Below are positions 1 to 11,442 of a stretch of 64,000 bases of DNA, in pieces. Source of the stretch: Bradyrhizobium sp. MOS002 (GTDB lineage: Bacteria > Pseudomonadota > Alphaproteobacteria > Rhizobiales > Xanthobacteraceae); assembly GCF_003020115.1 (NCBI RefSeq), contig NZ_PYFX01000003.1, forward strand, positions 620,001 through 684,000, written 5' to 3'. A program made the translations under genes and the position numbers. The notes beneath the pieces were generated by a model. That model was not told the DNA's origin. It did not search any database and saw only the letters and a program-made list of their open reading frames with translations. The stretch's first letter is position 1, and each line of letters opens with the position of its first letter.

Positions 1-1563
1 ATCGTTCTCGAACGCCGAGAGCGCGGCGTGCTCGCGAAAAATGTCGGCGGCGGATTTGTAGCCAAAGCTGTCGCCGAAGCCGAGGCGTTTTGCGGTTTCG
101 CTCACGATCCACCAGTCCGGCCGCGCCTCGCCAGGCGCCGGCAGGAACGAGCGCTGGCGCGAGATGCGGCGCTCGGAATTGGTCACGGTGCCCGACTTCT
201 CGCCCCAGGCGAGCGCGGGCAGCAGCACGTGCGGGCCGGCATCGACGGTGTCGTTGGAGAGCACGTTCTCGGAGACCACGAACAGCTCGAGCTTCTTCAG
301 CGCCTCGCGCACGAAGTCCGCGTCGGGCAGCGAGACCGCGGGGTTGGTGCCCATCACCCAGAGCGCCTTGACCTCGCCGCGATTGATGGCTTCGAACAGC
401 TGCACCGCCTTCAACCCTTCATGGGTGGCGATGCGCGGCGCCTTCCAGAACCGCCGCACGCGATCGATGTCGGGCGGCGTGAAGTTCATATGCGCGGCGA
501 GCTGGTTGGCGAGGCCGCCGACCTCGCGGCCGCCCATCGCGTTGGGCTGGCCGGTGAGCGAGAACGGTGAGGCACCCGGCTTGCCGATGCGCCCCGTGGC
601 GAGATGGCAGTTCAGGATCGCGTTGACCTTGTCGGTGCCCTGCGCCGACTGGTTGACACCTTGCGAGTACAGCGTGACGACGCGGGGCGTGTCACGGAAC
701 ATCTTGAAGAAGGTCGCAACGTCCTGCTCGGAGAGGCCGGTCGCCAGTGCGGTCGCGGTGACGCCGCCGGCGATGCTCCGTGCGCGCGCCAGCGCGTCGT
801 CAAAGCCGGACGTGTTTTGCGCGATGTAGTCCTGATCCAGGGCCCCATTGTCGGCGAGGTGAACGAACAGGCCGGAGAACAGCGCCGTGTCGGTGCCGGG
901 CTTGAGGCCCAGGAACAGATCGACATCGGTCGCGGTGTCGGTGCGGCGCGGATCGATCACGATCATGCGGGCGCCGCGCTCCTGCCGGTTCTTCAACATG
1001 CGCTGGAACAGCACGGGATGGCACCATGCGGCATTCGAACCAACGAACACCAGCAGATCGGCCTGGTCGAGATCCTCGTAGCATCCGGGCACGGTGTCGG
1101 CGCCGAAGGCGCGGCGGTGACCGGCGACCGAGGACGACATGCAGAGCCGCGAATTGGTGTCGACGTTCGCCGTGCCGACAAAGCCCTTCATCAGCTTGTT
1201 GGCGACGTAATAGTCCTCGGTCAGCAACTGACCGGAGAGATAGAATGCGACCGCGTCGGCGCCGTCGCGCGCGACGATGTGCTGCATGCGGTGGGCGACG
1301 TGATCGAGCGCATCGCTCCAGGCGACGCGTTCGAGCACGCCCTTGCAGCGGATCATCGGATAGAGCAGCCGGCTTTCCAGCCCGACAGTCTCGCCGAGCG
1401 CCGAGCCCTTGGAGCACAGCCGGCCGAAATTGGCGGGATGATCGGGATCGCCCGCGATCGCCGCGCCGCCGTTACCGTCTGGCGTCGCCAGCACGCCGCA
1501 GCCGACGCCGCAATACGGGCAGGTCGTTTTGGTGGCGCGGAGCGTGGCATCGATCGCCGTCAT
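1..1563 (-). CDS. nasC: assimilatory nitrate reductase, catalytic subunit (3' part beyond window)
   Basis: Large molybdopterin oxidoreductase that reduces nitrate to nitrite in the cytoplasm. The frame is open for 521 codons to the left edge without a stop, so the C-terminal part lies outside the window. The N-terminal [4Fe-4S] motif is visible as Cys15, Cys18, Cys22 and Cys50 (CPYCGVGC ... RLCSKGS), followed by the Mo-bisMGD fold (DPRRTDTA, GKPGASPFSLTGQPNAMGG). The ATG at 1563 has GAGG nine nt upstream and lies 15 nt after the stop of the flavoprotein gene. It is the last visible gene of narK-bjgb-flp-nasC, an order described for Bradyrhizobium nitrate assimilation. It has no fused flavin domain in the visible part; electrons are presumably supplied by the adjacent flavoprotein. 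Confidence 0.93.
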   Translation of the reverse strand, partial: MTAIDATLRATKTTCPYCGVGCGVLATPDGNGGAAIAGDPDHPANFGRLCSKGSALGETVGLESRLLYPMIRCKGVLERVAWSDALDHVAHRMQHIVARDGADAVAFYLSGQLLTEDYYVANKLMKGFVGTANVDTNSRLCMSSSVAGHRRAFGADTVPGCYEDLDQADLLVFVGSNAAWCHPVLFQRMLKNRQERGARMIVIDPRRTDTATDVDLFLGLKPGTDTALFSGLFVHLADNGALDQDYIAQNTSGFDDALARARSIAGGVTATALATGLSEQDVATFFKMFRDTPRVVTLYSQGVNQSAQGTDKVNAILNCHLATGRIGKPGASPFSLTGQPNAMGGREVGGLANQLAAHMNFTPPDIDRVRRFWKAPRIATHEGLKAVQLFEAINRGEVKALWVMGTNPAVSLPDADFVREALKKLELFVVSENVLSNDTVDAGPHVLLPALAWGEKSGTVTNSERRISRQRSFLPAPGEARPDWWIVSETAKRLGFGDSFGYKSAADIFREHAALSAFEND

Positions 1564-1578
1564 ATCAAGCTGCCTCTA

Positions 1579-2796
1579 TCAAGCCGCCTTGGGGGGCCCC
1601 GCGAGCGCGCGGCCGAACATCATGTCGGCGCGGATCGCCGCCACCTTTTCGCGGTTGCGGATCAGCTCGAGATACCAGAGCGCATCGACGGTATCGCCGA
1701 TCAGCAGAGCGCCGGTGAGCCGGCCCTCGGCGATGACGAGCTTCTTGTAGGTGCCGCGCCTGCGGTCTGACAGCACGAGGCTCTCGCTGCCCTCCCCGCC
1801 CATGAAGTCGCCGGCGGAGAACACGCTGACGCCCGACACCTTCAGATTGGTCGAGACCACGCTGCCCTGATAGGCCGCGGGACGACCGGAGAGATGCCGC
1901 GCCAGCACGCGCGCCTGCTCGTAGGCGGGCTCGACGAGGCCGTAGCAGGTGCCGCGATGCTCGGCGCATTCGCCAAGCGCGTAGATATCGGGTGACCCCG
2001 TCTGCATCTCGTCGTTGACGACGATGCCGCGGTTGACTGCGATGCCGGCGTCCTTTGCCAGCGCAATGTTGGGCCTGATGCCGGCGGCGAAGATCACGGC
2101 ATCGGCCTCGATGCGGCTGCCGTCGGCAAGCTCGACCCCTTCGACATGGCCCTCGCCGTGGATGCGGGCTGTGGATGCATTGAGCAGGATGCGAATGCCC
2201 TTGCGCTCGACCAGCGTCTTGAGCAGGTCGGCGGCGGGGCCATCGAGCTGGCGCTCCATCAGCCGGTCCATCAGGTGCAGCAGCGTCACGGGCGCTCCGG
2301 CCTTGGCGAGGCCGTAAGCCGCCTCGAGACCGAGCAGGCCGCCGCCGACCACGACGACGCGCTTCTTCGCCGCCGCAAGAGTAAGCAGCAGGTCGACGTC
2401 GCGGGTGTCGCGGAAGGTGTGCACGCCGGCGAGATCGGCGCCGGGCACGTTGAGCCGCAGCGGCGTCGAGCCGACGGCGAGCACGAGCTTGGAATATTCC
2501 ATGCTCTCTTCGCCTTCGATCTTGAGCTCGCGTCGGCCGGTGTCGATCTCGCTGACGCGATAACCGTAGCGCACCGTGACGCCGCGATGGCGCCACCAGT
2601 CGGCGGGCCGGAGCTCGATCTCGTGCGAACCGGTTTCGCCGGCCAGCACCGAGGAGAGCAGAACGCGGTTGTAAGCGAGCCGCGGCTCTTCGCCGATCAC
2701 GGCGACCGCGTAGCGGCCGAGCGAGGTCTTGGCGAGCTCGTCGACCAGACGCGCGGCCGCCATACCGTTCCCGACGATGACCAGCGGCTCACTCAC
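1579..2796 (-). CDS. flp: FAD/NAD(P)H-dependent oxidoreductase of the nitrate assimilation operon (Flp)
   Basis: 405 aa pyridine-nucleotide-disulphide-type flavoprotein, similar to the N-terminal half of NirB. An N-terminal dinucleotide fold (VIVGNGMAAARLV, residues 5-17) binds FAD, and a second Rossmann fold (VVVGGGLLGLEAAYG, around residue 150) binds NAD(P)H. In Bradyrhizobium the homologue passes electrons from NAD(P)H to the nitrate reductase and/or the operon haemoglobin; that role is taken from family knowledge. The GTG start at 2796 has GGAG seven nt upstream; the haemoglobin gene stops 10 nt before it and nasC starts 15 nt after it, so these are co-transcribed. It lacks the sirohaem/Fe-S reductase module of NirB. 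Confidence 0.9.
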   Translation of the reverse strand: MSEPLVIVGNGMAAARLVDELAKTSLGRYAVAVIGEEPRLAYNRVLLSSVLAGETGSHEIELRPADWWRHRGVTVRYGYRVSEIDTGRRELKIEGEESMEYSKLVLAVGSTPLRLNVPGADLAGVHTFRDTRDVDLLLTLAAAKKRVVVVGGGLLGLEAAYGLAKAGAPVTLLHLMDRLMERQLDGPAADLLKTLVERKGIRILLNASTARIHGEGHVEGVELADGSRIEADAVIFAAGIRPNIALAKDAGIAVNRGIVVNDEMQTGSPDIYALGECAEHRGTCYGLVEPAYEQARVLARHLSGRPAAYQGSVVSTNLKVSGVSVFSAGDFMGGEGSESLVLSDRRRGTYKKLVIAEGRLTGALLIGDTVDALWYLELIRNREKVAAIRADMMFGRALAGPPKAA

Positions 2797-2806
2797 AACG
2801 CATCTC

Positions 2807-3235
2807 CTATTCAGCGGCCTGCGACTGCGCGCCGTAGGCCTCGGAAATCATGTAGCCGGACAACACGCCGTAGGCGTCAGTCCAGGCCGTGGCGAGTTCG
2901 GGCGTCCAGGCCTCGCCGAGCCCCTTCTCCAGCGTCCACAGCAAGGTCGCGCCGACCACGGGGTAGTGCTCGGCCTTGGCGCCGTAGGCGACGTGACGCT
3001 TCGCAAGCGCCGAGGCCGCGGGAAGAATCGAGTCCAAGTTCGACAGGCCGCCGACGACGGCGGCGAGCATGCCCATCAGCTTCTTGCGCTGCTCAGTCAT
3101 GTCCTCGGGAAACATCGCGCGCACGGATGGCGCGACCTCGAACAGGCGATCGTAGAACAGCACCGCGGCCTGCGCGGAAATCGGCGCCACCTTGGCAAAG
3201 CTCTGCTGGACGAGGGTGATCTGTTCTGGCGTCAT
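2807..3235 (-). CDS. bjgb: single-domain bacterial haemoglobin
   Basis: 142 aa globin with no reductase domain (a flavohaemoglobin would be about 400 aa). It begins MTPEQITLVQQSFAKV; KRHVAYGAKAEHYPVVG carries the expected proximal histidine region. In Bradyrhizobium this globin detoxifies NO formed during nitrate assimilation, with the downstream flavoprotein as the likely reductase. I chose the ATG at 3235 because AGGAGA lies just upstream; an in-frame extension to 3310 has no family similarity. It sits between narK and flp. Confidence 0.92.
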   Translation of the reverse strand: MTPEQITLVQQSFAKVAPISAQAAVLFYDRLFEVAPSVRAMFPEDMTEQRKKLMGMLAAVVGGLSNLDSILPAASALAKRHVAYGAKAEHYPVVGATLLWTLEKGLGEAWTPELATAWTDAYGVLSGYMISEAYGAQSQAAE

Positions 3236-3354
3236 GATGTTCTCCTGCCTGTTGGGTTTGCCTTGGTGCGCGCCATTGCGAACCAGGTTCATGGTCAAAC
3301 TGTCGGGCAATGCTTCTCCCCGCGTAATGGGAGAAGCGAGATTCGTACCAAGTG

Positions 3355-4734
3355 TTATACCCTTGCTCCGGCGAGGCTTGACGCGCCCTCACCCTGCGGG
3401 CTGCGACGCAGGTAGAACCACCAGGTCAGCGCGAGGCAGGAGGCGTAGAAGCCGAGATAGATCGCGAGCGCGAGCTGCGGCCCGCCGGTCAGCGCGATCG
3501 ACTTGCCGAACCCGGTCGGGATCAGATAGCCGCCCACGGCGCCGACCGCGCCGATGAAGCCGACCGCAGCACCGCTCTCGATGCTCGCCGTCTTCAAGGC
3601 GACCGCGCGCTCCGCATCGCCCTTGCCGCGCACCCTGAACAAATTCTGCTCGCGGAAGATCGAGGGGATCATGCGGTAGGTCGATCCGTTGCCGATGCCC
3701 GTCGTCACGAACAGGACCAGGAACATCGACAGGAAGCCGATGAAATCCTTGTGCCCGACGAAATAGAGCACGCCGATCGTGGCGCCTGCCATCACGATGA
3801 AATTCCAGAACGTGATGACCGAGCCGCCGATCCTGTCGGCAAGCCAGCCGCCGAGCGGCCGCGACAGCGAGCCGACCAACGGCCCCAGAAACGCGATCGC
3901 AATCGTGACTTGCGGGAACTGGGTCTTGATCAGCAGCGGAAATGCAGCCGAGTAGCCGATGAAAGAGCCGAACGTACCGATATAGAGATACGCCATGATC
4001 CAGGTGTGCTTGCGCTTGACCACGGCGAGCTGATTGTTGATCGACGACTTGGCCGTGGTCAGGTTGTTCATGAAGAACACGGCGCCGAAGACCGCGATCG
4101 CGATCGGCAGCACCCACATCAGGCCGGCGTTTTGCAGGAAAACACCGTCGACCGGCGATGCCTGGAACAGGTTGATGACCGCGAGCGTCATCAGGATCGG
4201 GGTCAACAGCTGTACGCTTGAGACGCCGATATTGCCGCCGGCGGCGTTGAGGCCGAGCGCCCATCCCTTCATCCGGTCGGGAAAGAAGAACGAGATGTTG
4301 GTCATGCTGGAGGCAAAATTGCCACCACCGAGACCGGCGGTCGAGGCAATCAGCAGCATCAGCCAGAACGGCGTGTCGGGCTGGCCGACGAAATAGGCGA
4401 GCGAGAGCGTCGGAATAAACAGGATCGCCGCACTGAAGATGGTCCAGTTGCGGCCGCCGAAGGTCGTCACCGCGAAGGTGTAGGGAAAGCGCATCAGCGC
4501 GCCGATCAGCCCGGGCACCGCGACGAGCTGGAACAGCTGGTCGGTGGTGTAGTGGAAGCCCGCCTGCGGCAGCTTGGTGGTGACGATGCTCCAGATCAGC
4601 CAGACCGAGAAGCCGATATGTTCGGCCACGATCGACCAGATCAGGTTGCGTCGCGCGATAGTCTTGCCAGTCGCATTCCAGAACGCCTCATCTTCGGGGC
4701 GCCAGTCTGAAATCCAAGTCGGACTCCTGGTCAT
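3355..4734 (-). CDS. narK: MFS nitrate/nitrite transporter NarK
   Basis: 459 aa inner-membrane protein of the nitrate/nitrite porter family with about 12 hydrophobic segments and glycine-rich family motifs (AGLGGGNFASSMTNISFFFP, NAAGGNIGVSSVQ). Expected role: nitrate uptake and/or nitrite export. First gene of narK-bjgb-flp-nasC; 119 nt separate it from the globin. Its ATG at 4734 is preceded by GAAGGGA. Upstream lie a sigma-54-like promoter, a paired NtrC-type site and a leader hairpin shared with nrtA. Confidence 0.93.
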   Translation of the reverse strand: MTRSPTWISDWRPEDEAFWNATGKTIARRNLIWSIVAEHIGFSVWLIWSIVTTKLPQAGFHYTTDQLFQLVAVPGLIGALMRFPYTFAVTTFGGRNWTIFSAAILFIPTLSLAYFVGQPDTPFWLMLLIASTAGLGGGNFASSMTNISFFFPDRMKGWALGLNAAGGNIGVSSVQLLTPILMTLAVINLFQASPVDGVFLQNAGLMWVLPIAIAVFGAVFFMNNLTTAKSSINNQLAVVKRKHTWIMAYLYIGTFGSFIGYSAAFPLLIKTQFPQVTIAIAFLGPLVGSLSRPLGGWLADRIGGSVITFWNFIVMAGATIGVLYFVGHKDFIGFLSMFLVLFVTTGIGNGSTYRMIPSIFREQNLFRVRGKGDAERAVALKTASIESGAAVGFIGAVGAVGGYLIPTGFGKSIALTGGPQLALAIYLGFYASCLALTWWFYLRRSPQGEGASSLAGARV

Positions 4735-5072: not shown

Positions 5073-5867
5073 TTACGCGGCTTCGACGAAGCGATGACGC
5101 TCATAGAGGAATTCGAGCACGCGCTGCCGGCACTTCAGATAAGTGGCGTTGGTCGCGAGCTCGAGTCGCTTGCGCGGGCGCGCCAGCGGCACCTCCAGCA
5201 CCTCGCCGATGCGCGCGCTCGGCCCGTTCGTCATCATGACGATGCGATCGGACAGCAGCACCGCCTCGTCGACGTCGTGGGTGATCATCAAAATGGTGTT
5301 GCCGAGCTTCTGATGCAGCGCCATCACCGAATCCTGCAGATGCGCGCGGGTCAGGGCATCGAGCGCGCCGAAAGGCTCGTCGAGCAGCAACACTTTCGGC
5401 TCCATGGCAAGCGCGCGGGCAATGCCGACGCGCTGCTTCATGCCGCCAGAGATCTCCGAGGGCCGCTTGTCCTTGGCATGGGCCATCTGCACGAGGTTGA
5501 GATTGTGCATCACCCATGCGTCGCGTTCGGCGCGCTTCTTGGTCTTGGCGAAGACCTTGTCGACGCCAAGCCTGACGTTCTCGTACACGGTCAGCCATGG
5601 CAGCAGGCTGTGGTTCTGGAACACCACCGCGCGGTCGGGTCCCGGCGAGTTCACCTCGCGGTTCTCGAGCAGCACGCCGCCGGTGGTGGCATTGGTCAGG
5701 CCTGCGATGATGTTGAGCAGGGTCGACTTGCCGCAACCGGAATGGCCGATGATCGAGACGTATTCGCCCTTCTCGATGGTGAGATTGATATCCTTCAGCA
5801 CCTCCGTGGAGGCCGCGCCGCGGGTAAAAATCTTGTCGATGTGGTCGAGCTTCAGATAAGCGGTCAT
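5073..5867 (-). CDS. nrtC: nitrate ABC transporter, ATP-binding protein
   Basis: 264 aa ABC ATPase of the nitrate/sulphonate/taurine family. Walker A GHSGCGKST at residues 41-49, ABC signature SGGMKQR, Walker B LLLDEPFGALD and the H-loop TILMITHDVDEA are all present. The ATG at 5867 starts 11 nt after the permease stop. It has no C-terminal substrate-binding-like extension, unlike cyanobacterial NrtC, and so resembles NrtD/NasD. An open frame running on to 6596 is an accident of the overlapping permease frame, not a fusion. It powers nitrate (possibly nitrite) import with the two upstream genes. Confidence 0.92.
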   Translation of the reverse strand: MTAYLKLDHIDKIFTRGAASTEVLKDINLTIEKGEYVSIIGHSGCGKSTLLNIIAGLTNATTGGVLLENREVNSPGPDRAVVFQNHSLLPWLTVYENVRLGVDKVFAKTKKRAERDAWVMHNLNLVQMAHAKDKRPSEISGGMKQRVGIARALAMEPKVLLLDEPFGALDALTRAHLQDSVMALHQKLGNTILMITHDVDEAVLLSDRIVMMTNGPSARIGEVLEVPLARPRKRLELATNATYLKCRQRVLEFLYERHRFVEAA

Positions 5868-5878
5868 GTGCTCCCCCT

Positions 5879-6775
5879 TCAGTTCAGCGCGGTGCCGCGG
5901 GTGACGATCTTGCCGGCGCCCGCGATCAGGCGGTCGAGCACGAAGCCGATGATGCCGACATAGAACAGCGCCAGGATGATCTCGCTGATATGCGAGGAGT
6001 TCCAGGCGTCCCAGATGAAGAAGCCGATGCCGACGCCACCGATCAGCATTTCCGCGGCGACGATGGCGAGCCAGGACAGGCCGATGCCGATGCGGAGCCC
6101 CGTGAAGATGTAGGGGGCGGCGGCCGGGATCATGATCTTGGCGAAGAACTCGAGCGGGTTGAGCTGCACCACCGCCGCGACGTTGCGATAATCCTGCGGG
6201 ATATTGCGGATGCCGACCGCGGTGTTGATGATGATCGGCCAGATCGAAGTGATGAAGATGACGAAGATCGCGGACGGCTGGCCGTCGCGGAACGCGGCGA
6301 GCGACAGCGGCAGCCAGGCCAGCGGCGGGATCGTGCGCAAGACCTGGAACAACGGATCGAGCCCGCGCATCGCCCAGACCGACTGGCCGACCAGGACGCC
6401 AAGCGCGATGCCGGCGATGGCCGAGAGCGAATAGCCCAGCGCGACGCGCTGGAGACTGGCGGAGAGATGCCAGAACAGACCCTTGTCGATGCCGCCATGG
6501 TCGAAGAACGGATCGAAGATCAATTCCTTGGTGTCCTTGAACACCTTCGACGGCGGCGGCAACGCCGAGCCGGCGCGGCGGCAGACCAGCTCCCACACCA
6601 GAAGCAAGAGCGCGATCACGACCAGCGGCGGGATCACGCGCACGGCGGTCTCCCGCGCCATCCGCGCGTAAGTCTCCGAACGCGGCGGCCGCTTCGGCGT
6701 CATCGCGACGACCGGCGCGGCGGTGCCCGCGGGGGTCGCGGTCTCAATGTCCATCTTGGTGGCAGGCATGTTCAT
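5879..6775 (-). CDS. nrtB: nitrate ABC transporter, permease
   Basis: 298 aa integral membrane permease. A hydrophilic N-terminus of about 45 residues is followed by six predicted hydrophobic segments. The ABC-coupling (EAA-type) loop reads around NIPQDYRNVAAVVQLNPLEFFAKIMIPAAAPYI. It lies between the binding protein (56 nt gap) and the ATPase (11 nt gap). The substrate is inferred from nrtA and the nitrate-operon context. Confidence 0.92.
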   Translation of the reverse strand: MNMPATKMDIETATPAGTAAPVVAMTPKRPPRSETYARMARETAVRVIPPLVVIALLLLVWELVCRRAGSALPPPSKVFKDTKELIFDPFFDHGGIDKGLFWHLSASLQRVALGYSLSAIAGIALGVLVGQSVWAMRGLDPLFQVLRTIPPLAWLPLSLAAFRDGQPSAIFVIFITSIWPIIINTAVGIRNIPQDYRNVAAVVQLNPLEFFAKIMIPAAAPYIFTGLRIGIGLSWLAIVAAEMLIGGVGIGFFIWDAWNSSHISEIILALFYVGIIGFVLDRLIAGAGKIVTRGTALN

Positions 6776-6831: not shown

Positions 6832-8151
6832 TCAGACTTCGACGCGCTTGATCGCGAGCGACTTCAGATAGGCGGCCGGATTTTCCGGGTCGAACACCTT
6901 GCCGTCGAAGAACGTCTCCTTGCCGCGCGAGGTGGAGGTCGGGATCTCCGCGCTTGCGACGCCGAGCGTCTTGGCCGCGTCGCGCCACATGTCCTCGCGG
7001 TTGACCTTGGCGATCAGCGCCTTGGTGTCGAAATTCGCCTCGTACTTGCCCCAGCGAATGTCCTCGGTGAGGAACCAGAGGTCGTGGCTCTGGAAGGGAT
7101 AAGAGGCGAAGTCGCGCCAGTACTTCATGATGTGCGGCGAATTCTCGACCACCTTGCCGGGAAGGCCGTAGTCGAACTTGCCGGCGGTGCGGTCGAGCAC
7201 GTCTTCCACGGGGCAGTTCATCCACTGCCGCTTGCCCATGATGGCGGCGAGTTCTGCCTTGTTCTCGGCCTTGTCGGACCATTGCTGCGCTTCCATCACC
7301 GCCATCAGCAGCGCCTTGGCGGCCTTGGGATATTTGTCGACGAAGGCGGCGCGCATGCCGAAGGATTTTTCCGGGTGCTTGTTCCAGAGTTCGCCGGTCG
7401 TGACCGCGGTGTAGCCGATGTTCTGGTGGATCAGCTGGAGGTTCCAGGGCTCGCCGACGCAGAAACAGTCCATCGTGCCGACCTTCATGTTGGCCACCAT
7501 CTGCGCCGGCGGCACCACGATGGTCTCGATGTCCTTGTCCGGATCGATGCCGCCGGCGGCGAGCCAGTAGCGGATCCAGAGGTCATGCGTGCCGCCGGGG
7601 AAGGTCATCGCCGCCTTCACGGCCTTGCCCGAGGCCTTCTTTTTCTCCAGCGCCGCCTTGAAGGGCGAAGCATCGACGCCGAGCTTCAGGTCGGCATATT
7701 CACTGGCAACGGAGATGCACTGGCTGTCGAGATTGAGCCGCGCCAGGATGTACATCGGCGTCGGCTGGTTGTTCTGCGTCACCTTGCCTGCCGAGATCAG
7801 ATACGGCATCGGGGTCAGGATGTGTGCCCCGTCGATGCCGTTGCCTTCGGAGCCGAGCACGAGATTGTCCCGCGTGGTGCCCCAGGAGGCCTGCTTCTGC
7901 ACGTCGGTGTCAGGCATGCCGTATTTGGCGAACAGGCCCTTGTCCTTGGCCACGAACAAGGGGCCGGCATCGCTCAGTGCGATGAAGCCGAGCTTGGCGC
8001 CCTTGACCTCCGGGCCTGAGTCCTGCGCGAAGGCGCCGGCGGGGAAATTCAGTTTTACGGCGGCCAGGAGTGCGGCGGTCGAGCCGGCGGCCTTCAACAA
8101 TTGACGGCGGCTGAGGCCAGTGTCCGACGGCCGGCGGGTGCGCTTGGTCAT
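6832..8151 (-). CDS. nrtA: nitrate ABC transporter, substrate-binding protein
   Basis: 439 aa exported protein of the NrtA/TauA class. It begins with a twin-arginine signal (SRRQLLKAAG, Arg15-Arg16) and ends its signal with AGAFAQDS. The body carries the nitrate-binding-protein pattern (GFIALSDAGPLFVAKDKGLFAKYG; MDCFCVGEPWN; GELWNKHPEKSFG). Known family role: captures nitrate in the periplasm and delivers it to the permease. First gene of the minus-strand operon; its roughly 170-nt leader starts from a sigma-54-like promoter and contains the hairpin shared with narK. Confidence 0.94.
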   Translation of the reverse strand: MTKRTRRPSDTGLSRRQLLKAAGSTAALLAAVKLNFPAGAFAQDSGPEVKGAKLGFIALSDAGPLFVAKDKGLFAKYGMPDTDVQKQASWGTTRDNLVLGSEGNGIDGAHILTPMPYLISAGKVTQNNQPTPMYILARLNLDSQCISVASEYADLKLGVDASPFKAALEKKKASGKAVKAAMTFPGGTHDLWIRYWLAAGGIDPDKDIETIVVPPAQMVANMKVGTMDCFCVGEPWNLQLIHQNIGYTAVTTGELWNKHPEKSFGMRAAFVDKYPKAAKALLMAVMEAQQWSDKAENKAELAAIMGKRQWMNCPVEDVLDRTAGKFDYGLPGKVVENSPHIMKYWRDFASYPFQSHDLWFLTEDIRWGKYEANFDTKALIAKVNREDMWRDAAKTLGVASAEIPTSTSRGKETFFDGKVFDPENPAAYLKSLAIKRVEV

Positions 8152-8570: not shown

Positions 8571-8587
8571 CGGCACGCGACTTGCAT
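8571..8587 (+). promoter_or_regulatory. sigma-54 promoter of the nitrite channel-kinase operon
   Basis: CGGCACGCGACTTGCAT: GG at -24, exactly ten bases, GC at -12, a close match to TGGCACG-N4-TTGC. It predicts a start near 8596 and a leader of about 215 nt. That leader opens with GTC-AACGAC-GAC (8598-8609), the same six-base loop seen in the nrtA and narK leaders, followed by a CTGCAGCC/GGCTGCAG hairpin with a six-base loop (8630-8651). Confidence 0.65.
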
Positions 8588-8810: not shown

Positions 8811-9650
8811 ATGTCGTATCTCGCGCCTTCGGAATTCGTCACCAAGATGGTGGATGCGGGCGAGTCCAAAGTCTTCATGTCCACCCGGGATACCATCATC
8901 CGGGCCTACATGGCCGGCGCCATCCTGGCGCTCGCGGCATGGTTCGCCGTCACGATCAACGTGAATACGGGGCAGCCGCTGATCGGCGCGTTGCTGTTCC
9001 CGGTCGGATTCTCGATGCTCTATTTGTTGGGCTTCGACCTTTTGACCGGCGTGTTCGTGCTGGCGCCGCTGGCGCTGATCGACAAGCGCCCAGGCGTCAC
9101 CATCGGAGGCGTATTGCGGAACTGGGGCCTCGTCTTCATCGGCAATTTCGCAGGAGCCCTCACGGTGGCCTTCATGATGGCCTTCGTCACGACCTTCGGC
9201 TTTACGCAGGATCCGGACAAGGTCGGCGCGGCGATCGGCAATATCGGCGAAGGCCGCACGCTCGGCTATGCAGCGCACGGCGCGGCCGGCATGGCGACGC
9301 TGTTTATCCGCGGAATGCTCTGCAACTGGATGGTCTCGACCGGCGTCGTCGGCGCCATGATCTCGACCTCCGTCCCCGGCAAGGTCATCGCGATGTGGAT
9401 GCCCATCCTGGTGTTCTTCTACATGGTGTTCGAGCATTCCGTCGTGAACATGTTCCTGTTCCCGTCGGGGCTGATGCTGCACTCAAAATTCTCGATCATG
9501 GATTATCTGATCTGGAACGAGATCCCGACCGTGCTCGGCAACCTCGTGGGCGGCCTCGCCTTCACCGGCATGACTCTCTACGCCACGCACGTCTTGACCC
9601 AGCCGAAGCGCCAGGCCGGCAAGGCCACGTCGCCCCGCGTCGCAGCCTGA
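8811..9650 (+). CDS. formate/nitrite transporter family channel (NirC/FocA-like)
   Basis: 279 aa membrane protein with the FNT pattern: six hydrophobic segments, GNFAGALTVAFMMAF in the middle and the late FEHSVVNMFLFPSG motif. The family conducts small monovalent anions such as nitrite and formate. Nitrate-operon context and a sigma-54 promoter favour nitrite. The ATG at 8811 has AAAAGGAACATCG upstream. A terminator-like hairpin follows directly, after which the kinase-phosphatase gene begins. Confidence 0.88.
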   Translation: MSYLAPSEFVTKMVDAGESKVFMSTRDTIIRAYMAGAILALAAWFAVTINVNTGQPLIGALLFPVGFSMLYLLGFDLLTGVFVLAPLALIDKRPGVTIGGVLRNWGLVFIGNFAGALTVAFMMAFVTTFGFTQDPDKVGAAIGNIGEGRTLGYAAHGAAGMATLFIRGMLCNWMVSTGVVGAMISTSVPGKVIAMWMPILVFFYMVFEHSVVNMFLFPSGLMLHSKFSIMDYLIWNEIPTVLGNLVGGLAFTGMTLYATHVLTQPKRQAGKATSPRVAA

Positions 9651-9705: not shown

Positions 9706-11442
9706 ATGACGATGACCCGCGGACTTCAGATTTCGGTCGGCCAGCACTCCGACAAGGGTCGCAAGCCCATCAACCAGGATTTTCACGGCGTCCTCGTTCC
9801 GGACGAGCCGATGCTCAGCCTGAAGGGCATTGCGGCCGTTCTCGCCGATGGCATCTCGAGCAGCACGGTGAGCCAGATCGCCAGCGAGTCGGCGGTCAAG
9901 AGCTTCCTGATGGACTATTACTGCACGTCGGAATCCTGGACGGTGAAGACCTCCGCACGCCGCGTGCTGGATGCGACCAATTCCTGGCTGCACGCGCAGA
10001 CGCGCAAGAGCCAATATGCCTATGACCGCGACAAGGGTTATGTCTGCACGCTGAGCGCCATGGTCATCAAGGCGACCACCGCGCACATCTTCCACGTCGG
10101 GGACTGTCGCATCTACCGCGTGGCGGGCAAGGCGCTCGAGCAGCTGACCGACGATCACCGGATCATCGTGTCCTCGGAGCAGACCTATCTCGGCCGTGCG
10201 CTCGGCATCAATCCGCAGCTCGAGATCGACTACCAGAGTTTCGAGATCGAGACGGGCGACACTTTCCTGCTGGCGACCGACGGCGCCTATGAATTCGTCG
10301 ACGCGCGCTTCATCACGAGCGCGCTCAGCGAGCATGCAGCCGAGCTCGACGGGGCGGCGAAGGCGATCGTCGAGGAAGCCTACCGGCGCGGCAGCGACGA
10401 CAACATCACGGTCCAGATCCTCCGCATCGATGCGGTGCCGCAGCGCGAGCCGGCCGGCATCTTCAACCAGACTTCCCAACTGCCGCTTCCCCCGCTGCCG
10501 GAGCCGCGGGCAATCTTCGACGGCTACAGGATCGTCCGCGAAATCCACGGCAGCAACCGCAGTCACATCTACCTTGCCGTCGACGCAGTGACCGAGGAGC
10601 CGGTCGCGCTGAAGCTTCCGTCGATCGATTTGCGCGACAATGCCGCCTACCTGAAGCGCTTCCTGATGGAGGAGTGGATCGCGCGCCGGATCGACAGCCC
10701 GCACGTGCTGAAGCCGTTGTCGCAGTCGAAACGGCGCAGCTACCTCTACGTCGCGACCGAATTCGTCGAAGGTCAGACATTGCGGCAGTGGATGACGGAC
10801 AATCCGCGCCCCGATCTCGAAACCGTCCGCGGACTGATCGAGCAAATTGCCGCGGGCCTGCGCGCCTTCCACCGCATGGAAATGCTGCATCAGGACCTCA
10901 GGCCCGACAACATCCTGATCGACAAGACCGGCACCGCGAAGATCATCGACTTCGGATCGGTCAAGGTGGCAGGCGTCGCGGAGGCCGCGCCGCAGGACGA
11001 GACCGACGAAATTCTGGGAACGGTCCAGTACACGGCGCCGGAATATTTTCTTGGACAAGGCGGCTCGCCGCGCTCCGACATGTTTTCACTCGCCGTGATC
11101 TGCTACCAGATGCTGACGGGAAAGCTTCCCTACGGCACTCAAATCGCCAGGATCCGGCGCAAGGCGGACGTGCGGAGGCTCAAATATCGCCCGGCCGACG
11201 ACGACAGCAACGTGCCCGCCTGGGTCGACGGCGCGCTCAGACGTGCGCTCCATCCGGATCCCTACAAGCGGCACGAGGATCTGTCCGAATTCGTCTTCGA
11301 GCTTCGCACGCCCAATCCGGCCTATCTCGACACGCGGATCACGCCGCTTTTGGAGCGCAGCCCGCTGATGTTCTGGAAATTGACCACGGCGGCGCTCGCC
11401 TGCATCGTCGTGGTCCTGCTTGCGATGTTGCACGCACGCTGA
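9706..11442 (+). CDS. PP2C phosphatase - Ser/Thr protein kinase fusion, membrane-anchored
   Basis: 578 aa from the ATG at 9706 (a second ATG at 9712; the frame also opens with a TTG at 9697 inside the terminator stem). Residues about 5-245 are a PP2C-type phosphatase with its metal-site acidic motifs (LADGIS, GDCRIYR, ATDGAYEF, GSDDNIT). Residues about 270-525 are a Hanks-type kinase: VALK with Lys303, catalytic loop HQD (395-397) and DFG with Asp415, then TAPEYF. The catalytic loop reads HQDLRPDN, with Arg where most kinases have Lys after Asp. A single hydrophobic segment at about 553-574 anchors the C-terminus. Such fusions recur beside nitrate/nitrite transport genes; the substrate is unknown. 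Confidence 0.88.
   Translation: MTMTRGLQISVGQHSDKGRKPINQDFHGVLVPDEPMLSLKGIAAVLADGISSSTVSQIASESAVKSFLMDYYCTSESWTVKTSARRVLDATNSWLHAQTRKSQYAYDRDKGYVCTLSAMVIKATTAHIFHVGDCRIYRVAGKALEQLTDDHRIIVSSEQTYLGRALGINPQLEIDYQSFEIETGDTFLLATDGAYEFVDARFITSALSEHAAELDGAAKAIVEEAYRRGSDDNITVQILRIDAVPQREPAGIFNQTSQLPLPPLPEPRAIFDGYRIVREIHGSNRSHIYLAVDAVTEEPVALKLPSIDLRDNAAYLKRFLMEEWIARRIDSPHVLKPLSQSKRRSYLYVATEFVEGQTLRQWMTDNPRPDLETVRGLIEQIAAGLRAFHRMEMLHQDLRPDNILIDKTGTAKIIDFGSVKVAGVAEAAPQDETDEILGTVQYTAPEYFLGQGGSPRSDMFSLAVICYQMLTGKLPYGTQIARIRRKADVRRLKYRPADDDSNVPAWVDGALRRALHPDPYKRHEDLSEFVFELRTPNPAYLDTRITPLLERSPLMFWKLTTAALACIVVVLLAMLHAR

Follow-up and report, generated by a model that had tools for sequence, protein, structure and literature searches.

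Genes at the locus

The window, that is, the whole stretch of 64,000 nucleotides of Bradyrhizobium sp. MOS002 DNA that we have analysed, carries on its plus strand an open reading frame of 578 aa (ATG at 9706, stop at 11442). It encodes a PP2C phosphatase and a Hanks kinase followed by a C-terminal membrane helix, as assigned from Pfam, an alignment and a structure model. The gene of an FNT-family small-anion channel (8811..9650, plus strand; PF01226, 210.2 bits against a Pfam cut-off of 34.6) ends 55 nt upstream on the same strand, in agreement with the original prediction that the fusion directly follows a formate/nitrite channel. Such a channel is the constant neighbour of a clade of kinases with Arg in the catalytic loop (see below). 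The window channel scored under the equivalog cut-offs of NirC (41 of 293) and FocA (111.5 of 290.1). Its structure model (mean pLDDT 78.8, falling to about 60 at either end) matched the folds of LciA, FocA, HSC and PfFNT, with LciA, termed a bicarbonate transporter, being the nearest solved FNT by both sequence and fold.

A sigma-54-type promoter element, CGGCACGCGACTTGC (8571..8585, plus strand), sits 240 nt before the channel start and has one mismatch to the sigma-54 consensus TGGCAC-N5-TTGC. Elements with at most one mismatch were found 5' of the FNT gene in 38 of 72 related loci, with 1.0 expected from shuffles; they occurred in 23/23 Bradyrhizobium loci and in 15/49 loci elsewhere, a split made from record titles. 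This corroborated the sigma-54 promoter proposed for the locus, and the elements suggest that the channel-kinase pair could be under nitrogen control.

Divergent to the pair, the minus strand encodes an NrtA-type binding protein (6832..8151; PF13379, NrtA by context), which lies outside the conserved pair, an NrtB-type nitrate ABC permease (5879..6775; TIGR01183, 322.7 bits, cut-off 209.05), an NrtC-type nitrate ABC ATPase (5073..5882; TIGR01184, 343.6 bits, cut-off 291.8) and a NarK-like nitrate/nitrite MFS carrier (3355..4734), whose best models stayed below cut-off (TIGR00886, 299.8 of 311.7). Also on this strand are genes for a globin, an FAD reductase and a molybdopterin oxidoreductase (nitrate reductase by context); these and the NarK-like carrier, all within positions 1-4734, are arranged as in the B. 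japonicum nitrate assimilation/NO detoxification operon. The B. japonicum cluster blr2803-09, as described in the accessible part of PMC4724949, resembles the minus-strand nitrate genes of the window. Since the words "formate" and "kinase" are absent from that part of the paper, the channel-kinase pair seems to have been left unexamined there.

Domains and catalytic residues of the fusion protein

Pfam scored PP2C_2 (PF13672) with 53.6 bits (cut-off 24) over residues 23-206 and Pkinase with 129.1 bits (cut-off 31.7) over residues 285-522, and the structure model (mean pLDDT 85.9) showed a predicted C-terminal membrane helix at residues 553-577. The C-terminal segment reached a 17-residue Kyte-Doolittle maximum of 2.72, and a hydrophobic segment of at least 1.4 by the same measure was present at the C-terminus of 105/105 homologues longer than 540 aa. 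The prediction of a PP2C phosphatase, a Hanks kinase and a C-terminal membrane segment in one chain was thus borne out. The modelled folds matched PknB/PknA for the kinase and PP2C phosphatases for the other domain.

The catalytic loop HQDLRPDN (residues 395-402), K303 in the VALK motif (300-303) and DFG in IDFGS (414-418) were found as originally claimed. Kinase residues K303, E322, D397, N402, D415, G417 and A444-P445-E446 were invariant over 35 aligned rows, with F416 kept in at least 90% of them, and the protein carries the Hanks-type set of VALK Lys, alpha-C Glu, catalytic Asp/Asn, DFG and APE. The other domain has the profile match and the Asp set of PPM/PP2C Ser/Thr phosphatases, with D25, D48-G49, D133, D192-G193 and D232-N233 invariant over the 35 rows. 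Catalytic positions of both domains were also invariant in a smaller, 14-row alignment. Asp residues of PDB chains 5d2u and 2j82 align to D48, D133, D192 and D232, which we take to be metal ligands.

The glycine-rich loop of the window kinase is degenerate (HGSNRSH within IHGSNRSHI) and has no GxGxxG, with R285 and H287 invariant in place of the glycines. The Lys two residues after the catalytic Asp is absent as well, with Arg (R399) instead. Judging from the conserved residues, both domains could probably be active, phosphate being added and removed by one chain. A non-RD loop is a sign of control other than activation-loop phosphorylation, and the HQD loop, together with the lack of a recognised sensor domain, suggests that this kinase may be independent of such phosphorylation.

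We consider it quite improbable that the kinase domain has little activity, or phosphorylates only itself, and serves the channel as scaffold or sensor. The acidic residues of the PP2C domain, as well as K303, E322, D397, N402 and D415, never vary in the 14- and 35-row alignments, unlike in the double pseudo-enzymes of the wider family (L117, L118 and L123), whose existence speaks for an inactive kinase together with the glycine-less loop, HQD for HRD and Arg for the catalytic-loop Lys; Arg is, however, the normal residue at this position in Src-type kinases.

Catalytic-loop residue and transporter partner across the family

We have searched 299 Pseudomonadota genomes for homologues (E <= 1e-60), which were present in 96 of them, and compared the loci with 9 kb per side where contigs allowed. 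The alignment comprised 112 homologues plus the window protein, and the tree 107 rows, 6 fragments being left out. The window kinase fell inside a 42-row clade (SH-aLRT 99) in which all 42 rows have Arg in the catalytic loop. The loop that the original prediction had called unusual therefore follows the norm of its clade, and a degenerate or unusual site was rejected as an explanation of the Arg.

An FNT gene adjoins 42/42 assessable Arg-loop kinases, window included, lying upstream on the same strand in 40 loci and convergent in two (L059 and L060). A cyanase gene stands between FNT and kinase in L041; in L058, where two reading frames overlap, the FNT was placed by homology matches and is 44 nt upstream of the kinase. 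Three further Arg rows are outside this count, L137 and L138 being at contig ends and L123 degenerate.

Outside the Arg clade the loop has Lys, and 58 of the 60 assessable loci had an MFS nitrate carrier no more than 1.5 kb away; the representative of the carrier cluster scored above the TIGR00886 cut-off. No carrier was in reach in L085 and L136, while L124 and L134 do have one; it lies on the opposite strand to the kinase in L135, and in some Lys-loop loci a porin-like gene stands between the two. Lys rows L096, L099, L122, L139 and L140, with less than 550 nt upstream, were left out. The catalytic loop is missing in L142 and has neither Lys nor Arg in L117 and L118.

Locus L048 (3711-11100) holds in tandem an MFS carrier, a porin-like gene, a Lys-type kinase, an FNT and an Arg-type kinase; the carrier is 1.35 kb upstream of the Lys kinase, behind the porin-like gene, and the FNT is downstream of it. 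Parsimony gave two changes per trait, namely the shared branch plus either L123 (loop) or the L048 tandem (partner), the latter because the Lys copy of L048 has both transporters at its sides. The loop change and the partner switch therefore share one branch among intact kinases. On this tree without outgroup, we infer that the loop changed from Lys to Arg. Two changes are too few for significance in a correlated-change test of Arg and partner, and the link between them is one event, which cannot prove cause.

A scan of named genomes returned 80 loci, in hosts such as Bradyrhizobium, Stutzerimonas, Variovorax, Methylomonas and Hydrogenovibrio. The FNT was upstream on the same strand in 77/77 loci with room upstream, at gaps of 14-623 nt (75 of the 77, measured between match ends). 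An Arg loop was present in 78/80, one of the two scan patterns requiring Arg. The FNT-linked kinases L226 and L250 carry Lys and could be reversals or early branches; as they adjoin FNT, Arg is not strictly required beside this channel.

Seen from the channel, 44 of 45 FNT matches in the genome sample (at least 63% identity, near full length; judged by eye, with fragments in G239 and G232 left out) adjoin a kinase match. The MFS carrier of L074, used as query, gave 53 matches at 53% identity or more, with 43 lying, by eye, within 1.4 kb of a kinase match. Five of the ten others end less than 450 nt from a contig edge; at least two, G122:C42 and the second copy in G186, are genuine carriers lacking the kinase.

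The paralogues L117 (8983-10695), L118 (8998-10791) and L123 (8992-10749) have lost catalytic residues in both domains, the corresponding motifs of L117 reading HQQINPDN, TDFSA and TTQGVRG. They stand between genes for inorganic pyrophosphatase and phosphofructokinase (families checked in L117) and, by their sequences, represent a conserved double pseudo-enzyme.

Plasmid copies and channels without the kinase

Of the 24 plasmid records that scored best for the kinase, 23 had the FNT gene directly 5' of it, and the kinase loops read in three records all had Arg. In Acinetobacter plasmid records with the kinase, FNT was beside it in 12/12 and cyanase next to FNT in at least 8. Two plasmids typed as mobilizable, Psychrobacter pA17P2 (L275, 17 kb) and Acinetobacter junii pA (L274, 207 kb), combine cyanase, FNT channel and kinase-phosphatase with an Arg loop; nitrate genes are not annotated in the stretches examined.

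Of 50 plasmid records whose FNT is at least 60% identical, 27 had no kinase match (E <= 1e-40; the kinase may be elsewhere in the host), distributed over Paracoccus (10), Moraxella (7), Leisingera (5), Burkholderia (2), Rhizobium (2) and Ciceribacter (1). The settings included nirBD-FNT-nitrate reductase in Paracoccus, cyanase/FNT/nirBD in Moraxella and FNT-cyanase in Rhizobium rhizogenes. Likewise, of 10 genomes from a 385-genome alphaproteobacterial sample, G575 has a 63% FNT without the kinase. An obligate channel-kinase pair, as suggested by the 44/45 genome matches, was rejected in view of the 27/50 plasmid records. It appears that the kinase needs the channel and that the channel does not need the kinase, a one-way dependence that fits a regulator and its target.

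FNT also lies beside cyanase, the kinase being absent from the record, in L278, L288, L289 and two Geobacillus plasmid rows. These kinase-less cyanase-FNT neighbours suggest cyanate or bicarbonate as the cargo of some FNT channels.

Nitrate, cyanase and other variable neighbours

We have counted neighbours within 9 kb at 41 FNT-kinase loci, the window being outside the 41, with NirB, NirD, nitrate reductase, NasT and MFS carrier as nitrate/nitrite markers. Neighbour clusters were named by eye, and the representatives checked all fit; the nitrate-reductase cluster is below the NasA and NasC equivalog cut-offs and the NasT cluster is known by its ANTAR domain only. Nitrate/nitrite markers were present at 13/41 loci and cyanase at 9/41, with both in 2 loci and neither in 21/41; because several of these loci do not extend 9 kb both ways, the absences are maximum figures. 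In the Lys group, nitrate markers, MFS included, were found in 56/65. Within six other Bradyrhizobium genomes, nitrate markers were present in the three nearest (L033-L035) and absent in L036-L038.

A tight tie to nitrate genes was rejected on the 13/41 loci. The counts therefore identify the channel, not nitrate metabolism, as the constant partner. The neighbourhood survey that the original prediction had proposed as a check thus upheld the FNT as a fixed companion of the fusion, and reduced the nitrate link to a local one. The proposed regulation fared similarly: the adjacent channel is the best-supported target (42/42, 77/77), and NarK and NrtC found no support as substrates. Nitrite, the cargo first put forward, became uncertain, as cyanase accompanies the channel in 9/41 loci and on plasmids.

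In L051 (1903-6243), a PII gene, amtB, FNT and kinase stand in a row, tying that pair to nitrogen status, and in L085 an amtB gene precedes the Lys-type kinase and no MFS carrier was found on the contig. Both arrangements would be compatible with the enzyme targeting another nitrogen-assimilation protein (PII/GlnK, AmtB, nitrite reductase or a regulator), the channel being adjacent for co-expression only. PphA dephosphorylates PII, and the solved PP2C chains closest to the fusion are of the cyanobacterial tPphA type (name taken from 2y09). We nevertheless regard such a target as rather unlikely, for an AmtB marker was within 9 kb in 1/41 FNT-kinase loci and the channel adjacent in all, and of these genes the two plasmid modules hold only cyanase, channel and kinase.

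Those Psychrobacter and Acinetobacter junii plasmids, with no nitrate genes annotated in their stretches, would also fit the pair being a toxicity valve, in which the kinase shuts the channel at high cytoplasmic cyanate or nitrite, instead of a nitrogen-status switch. The sigma-54 elements point to nitrogen control, however, and 21/41 genome loci lack both cyanase and nitrate markers in the available sequence, and we judge the valve unlikely.

Candidate phosphosites on the channel

In the channel model T11 is part of an N-terminal helix (6-21), and the last helix (229-273) contains T263. T263 is Thr in 114/114 kinase-linked FNT rows, compared with Thr in 5 and Ser in 1 of 20 distant kinase-less FNTs, and is kept in most FNTs of the same subfamily, with or without the kinase. 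T11 and T28 looked specific against the 20 distant kinase-less FNTs, yet they are 2 of 25 class-specific columns. Against same-subfamily kinase-less FNTs (16 rows), T11 followed the presence of the kinase in 2/6 independent pairs and contradicted it in none (p 0.5 by sign test), and T28 showed no trend with kinase presence. Kinase-linked rows lacking Ser/Thr numbered 7/124 at position 11 and 7/124 at position 28.

A proposed membrane-anchored switch for the adjacent channel

On balance, we lean towards the fusion being a dedicated, membrane-anchored reversible-phosphorylation switch of the adjacent, nitrogen-controlled FNT channel. The pairing, the domains and the promoter element are observed; from them we infer catalysis, substrate, cargo and gating direction. 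Adjacency is a functional link, not proof of substrate. Sigma-54, probably with NtrC, would switch on the pair in nitrogen starvation, both NtrC and induction being presumed. The kinase domain would phosphorylate the channel at its cytoplasmic ends, or a protein attached to them, and the PP2C domain would reverse this, so that the balance of both sets channel phosphorylation. The phosphorylation state would then determine whether a small monovalent anion can pass through the channel passively. The sister kinase group would act likewise on NasA/NarK-type nitrate carriers.

The cargo could be nitrite beside nitrate genes, and perhaps cyanate or bicarbonate beside cyanase, since cyanase uses up both. 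According to the accessible part of PMC4390861, NitM, a marine cyanobacterial FNT, imports nitrite and is not inhibited by cyanate, and nitrate/nitrite transporters have been proposed for cyanate in Pseudomonas pseudoalcaligenes (PMC6627978, accessible part). More tentatively, and with somewhat less than an even chance in our estimate, the pair may be a portable two-gene phospho-gated FNT module for nitrite, cyanate or bicarbonate, kin to the NasA-carrier module, with the Lys/Arg change fixed at the partner exchange, and may move among bacteria on plasmids with cyanase.

If true, the proposed switch would be a post-translational control point for nitrite/cyanate entry in soil, marine and nodule bacteria. 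Many bacterial Ser/Thr kinases have no known substrate, and phosphorylation control of a channel by its own switch is little studied in bacteria. Gene order names a likely target for a kinase family of 96/299 genomes, in two versions (nitrate carrier and anion channel), so that a single gene pair would be enough to test both substrate and gating. The switch would also give reason to ask why cyanase adjoins FNT genes.

Comparison with known systems

Plasmid-record homologues are annotated as "bifunctional protein-serine/threonine kinase/phosphatase"; domain content and name are common to the homologues of the fusion, and the name is silent on the transporter partner. We presume that PA1782 belongs to the MFS-linked kinase group. 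It is described as the third putative kinase of P. aeruginosa in the accessible part of PMC8560001. PP2C-Pkinase fusions occur mainly in Pseudomonadota according to PMC12088040, in whose main text, as far as accessible, the words nitrate and nitrite are absent; in PMC6213207, which reviews the Hanks kinases of bacteria, the accessible part does not contain nitrate, nitrite or bifunctional. Our literature search of open-licence papers found no paper on the transporter-kinase pairing. The fusion itself is thus already annotated, and the paired channel-kinase module is the new part.

The fold of both domains is like that of the PknB/StkP-PstP kinase-phosphatase pairs, but in the window protein kinase and phosphatase are fused in one chain. 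The protein scored 158.2 of 450 with PknB_PASTA (NF033483), with no PASTA match in Pfam, and 108.4 of 230 with the Stp1/PstP equivalog (NF033484). The partner channel shares PF01226 with FocA, NirC and LciA, the latter being its nearest solved chain, and differs from FocA and NirC in lying below both equivalog cut-offs and in the T263 of all kinase-linked rows. By analogy only, with no homology claimed, the proposed switch would work like that of the plant nitrate transporter NRT1.1, on which the kinase CIPK23 and a PP2C phosphatase act: in both cases, a kinase and a PP2C on a nitrogen-anion transporter.
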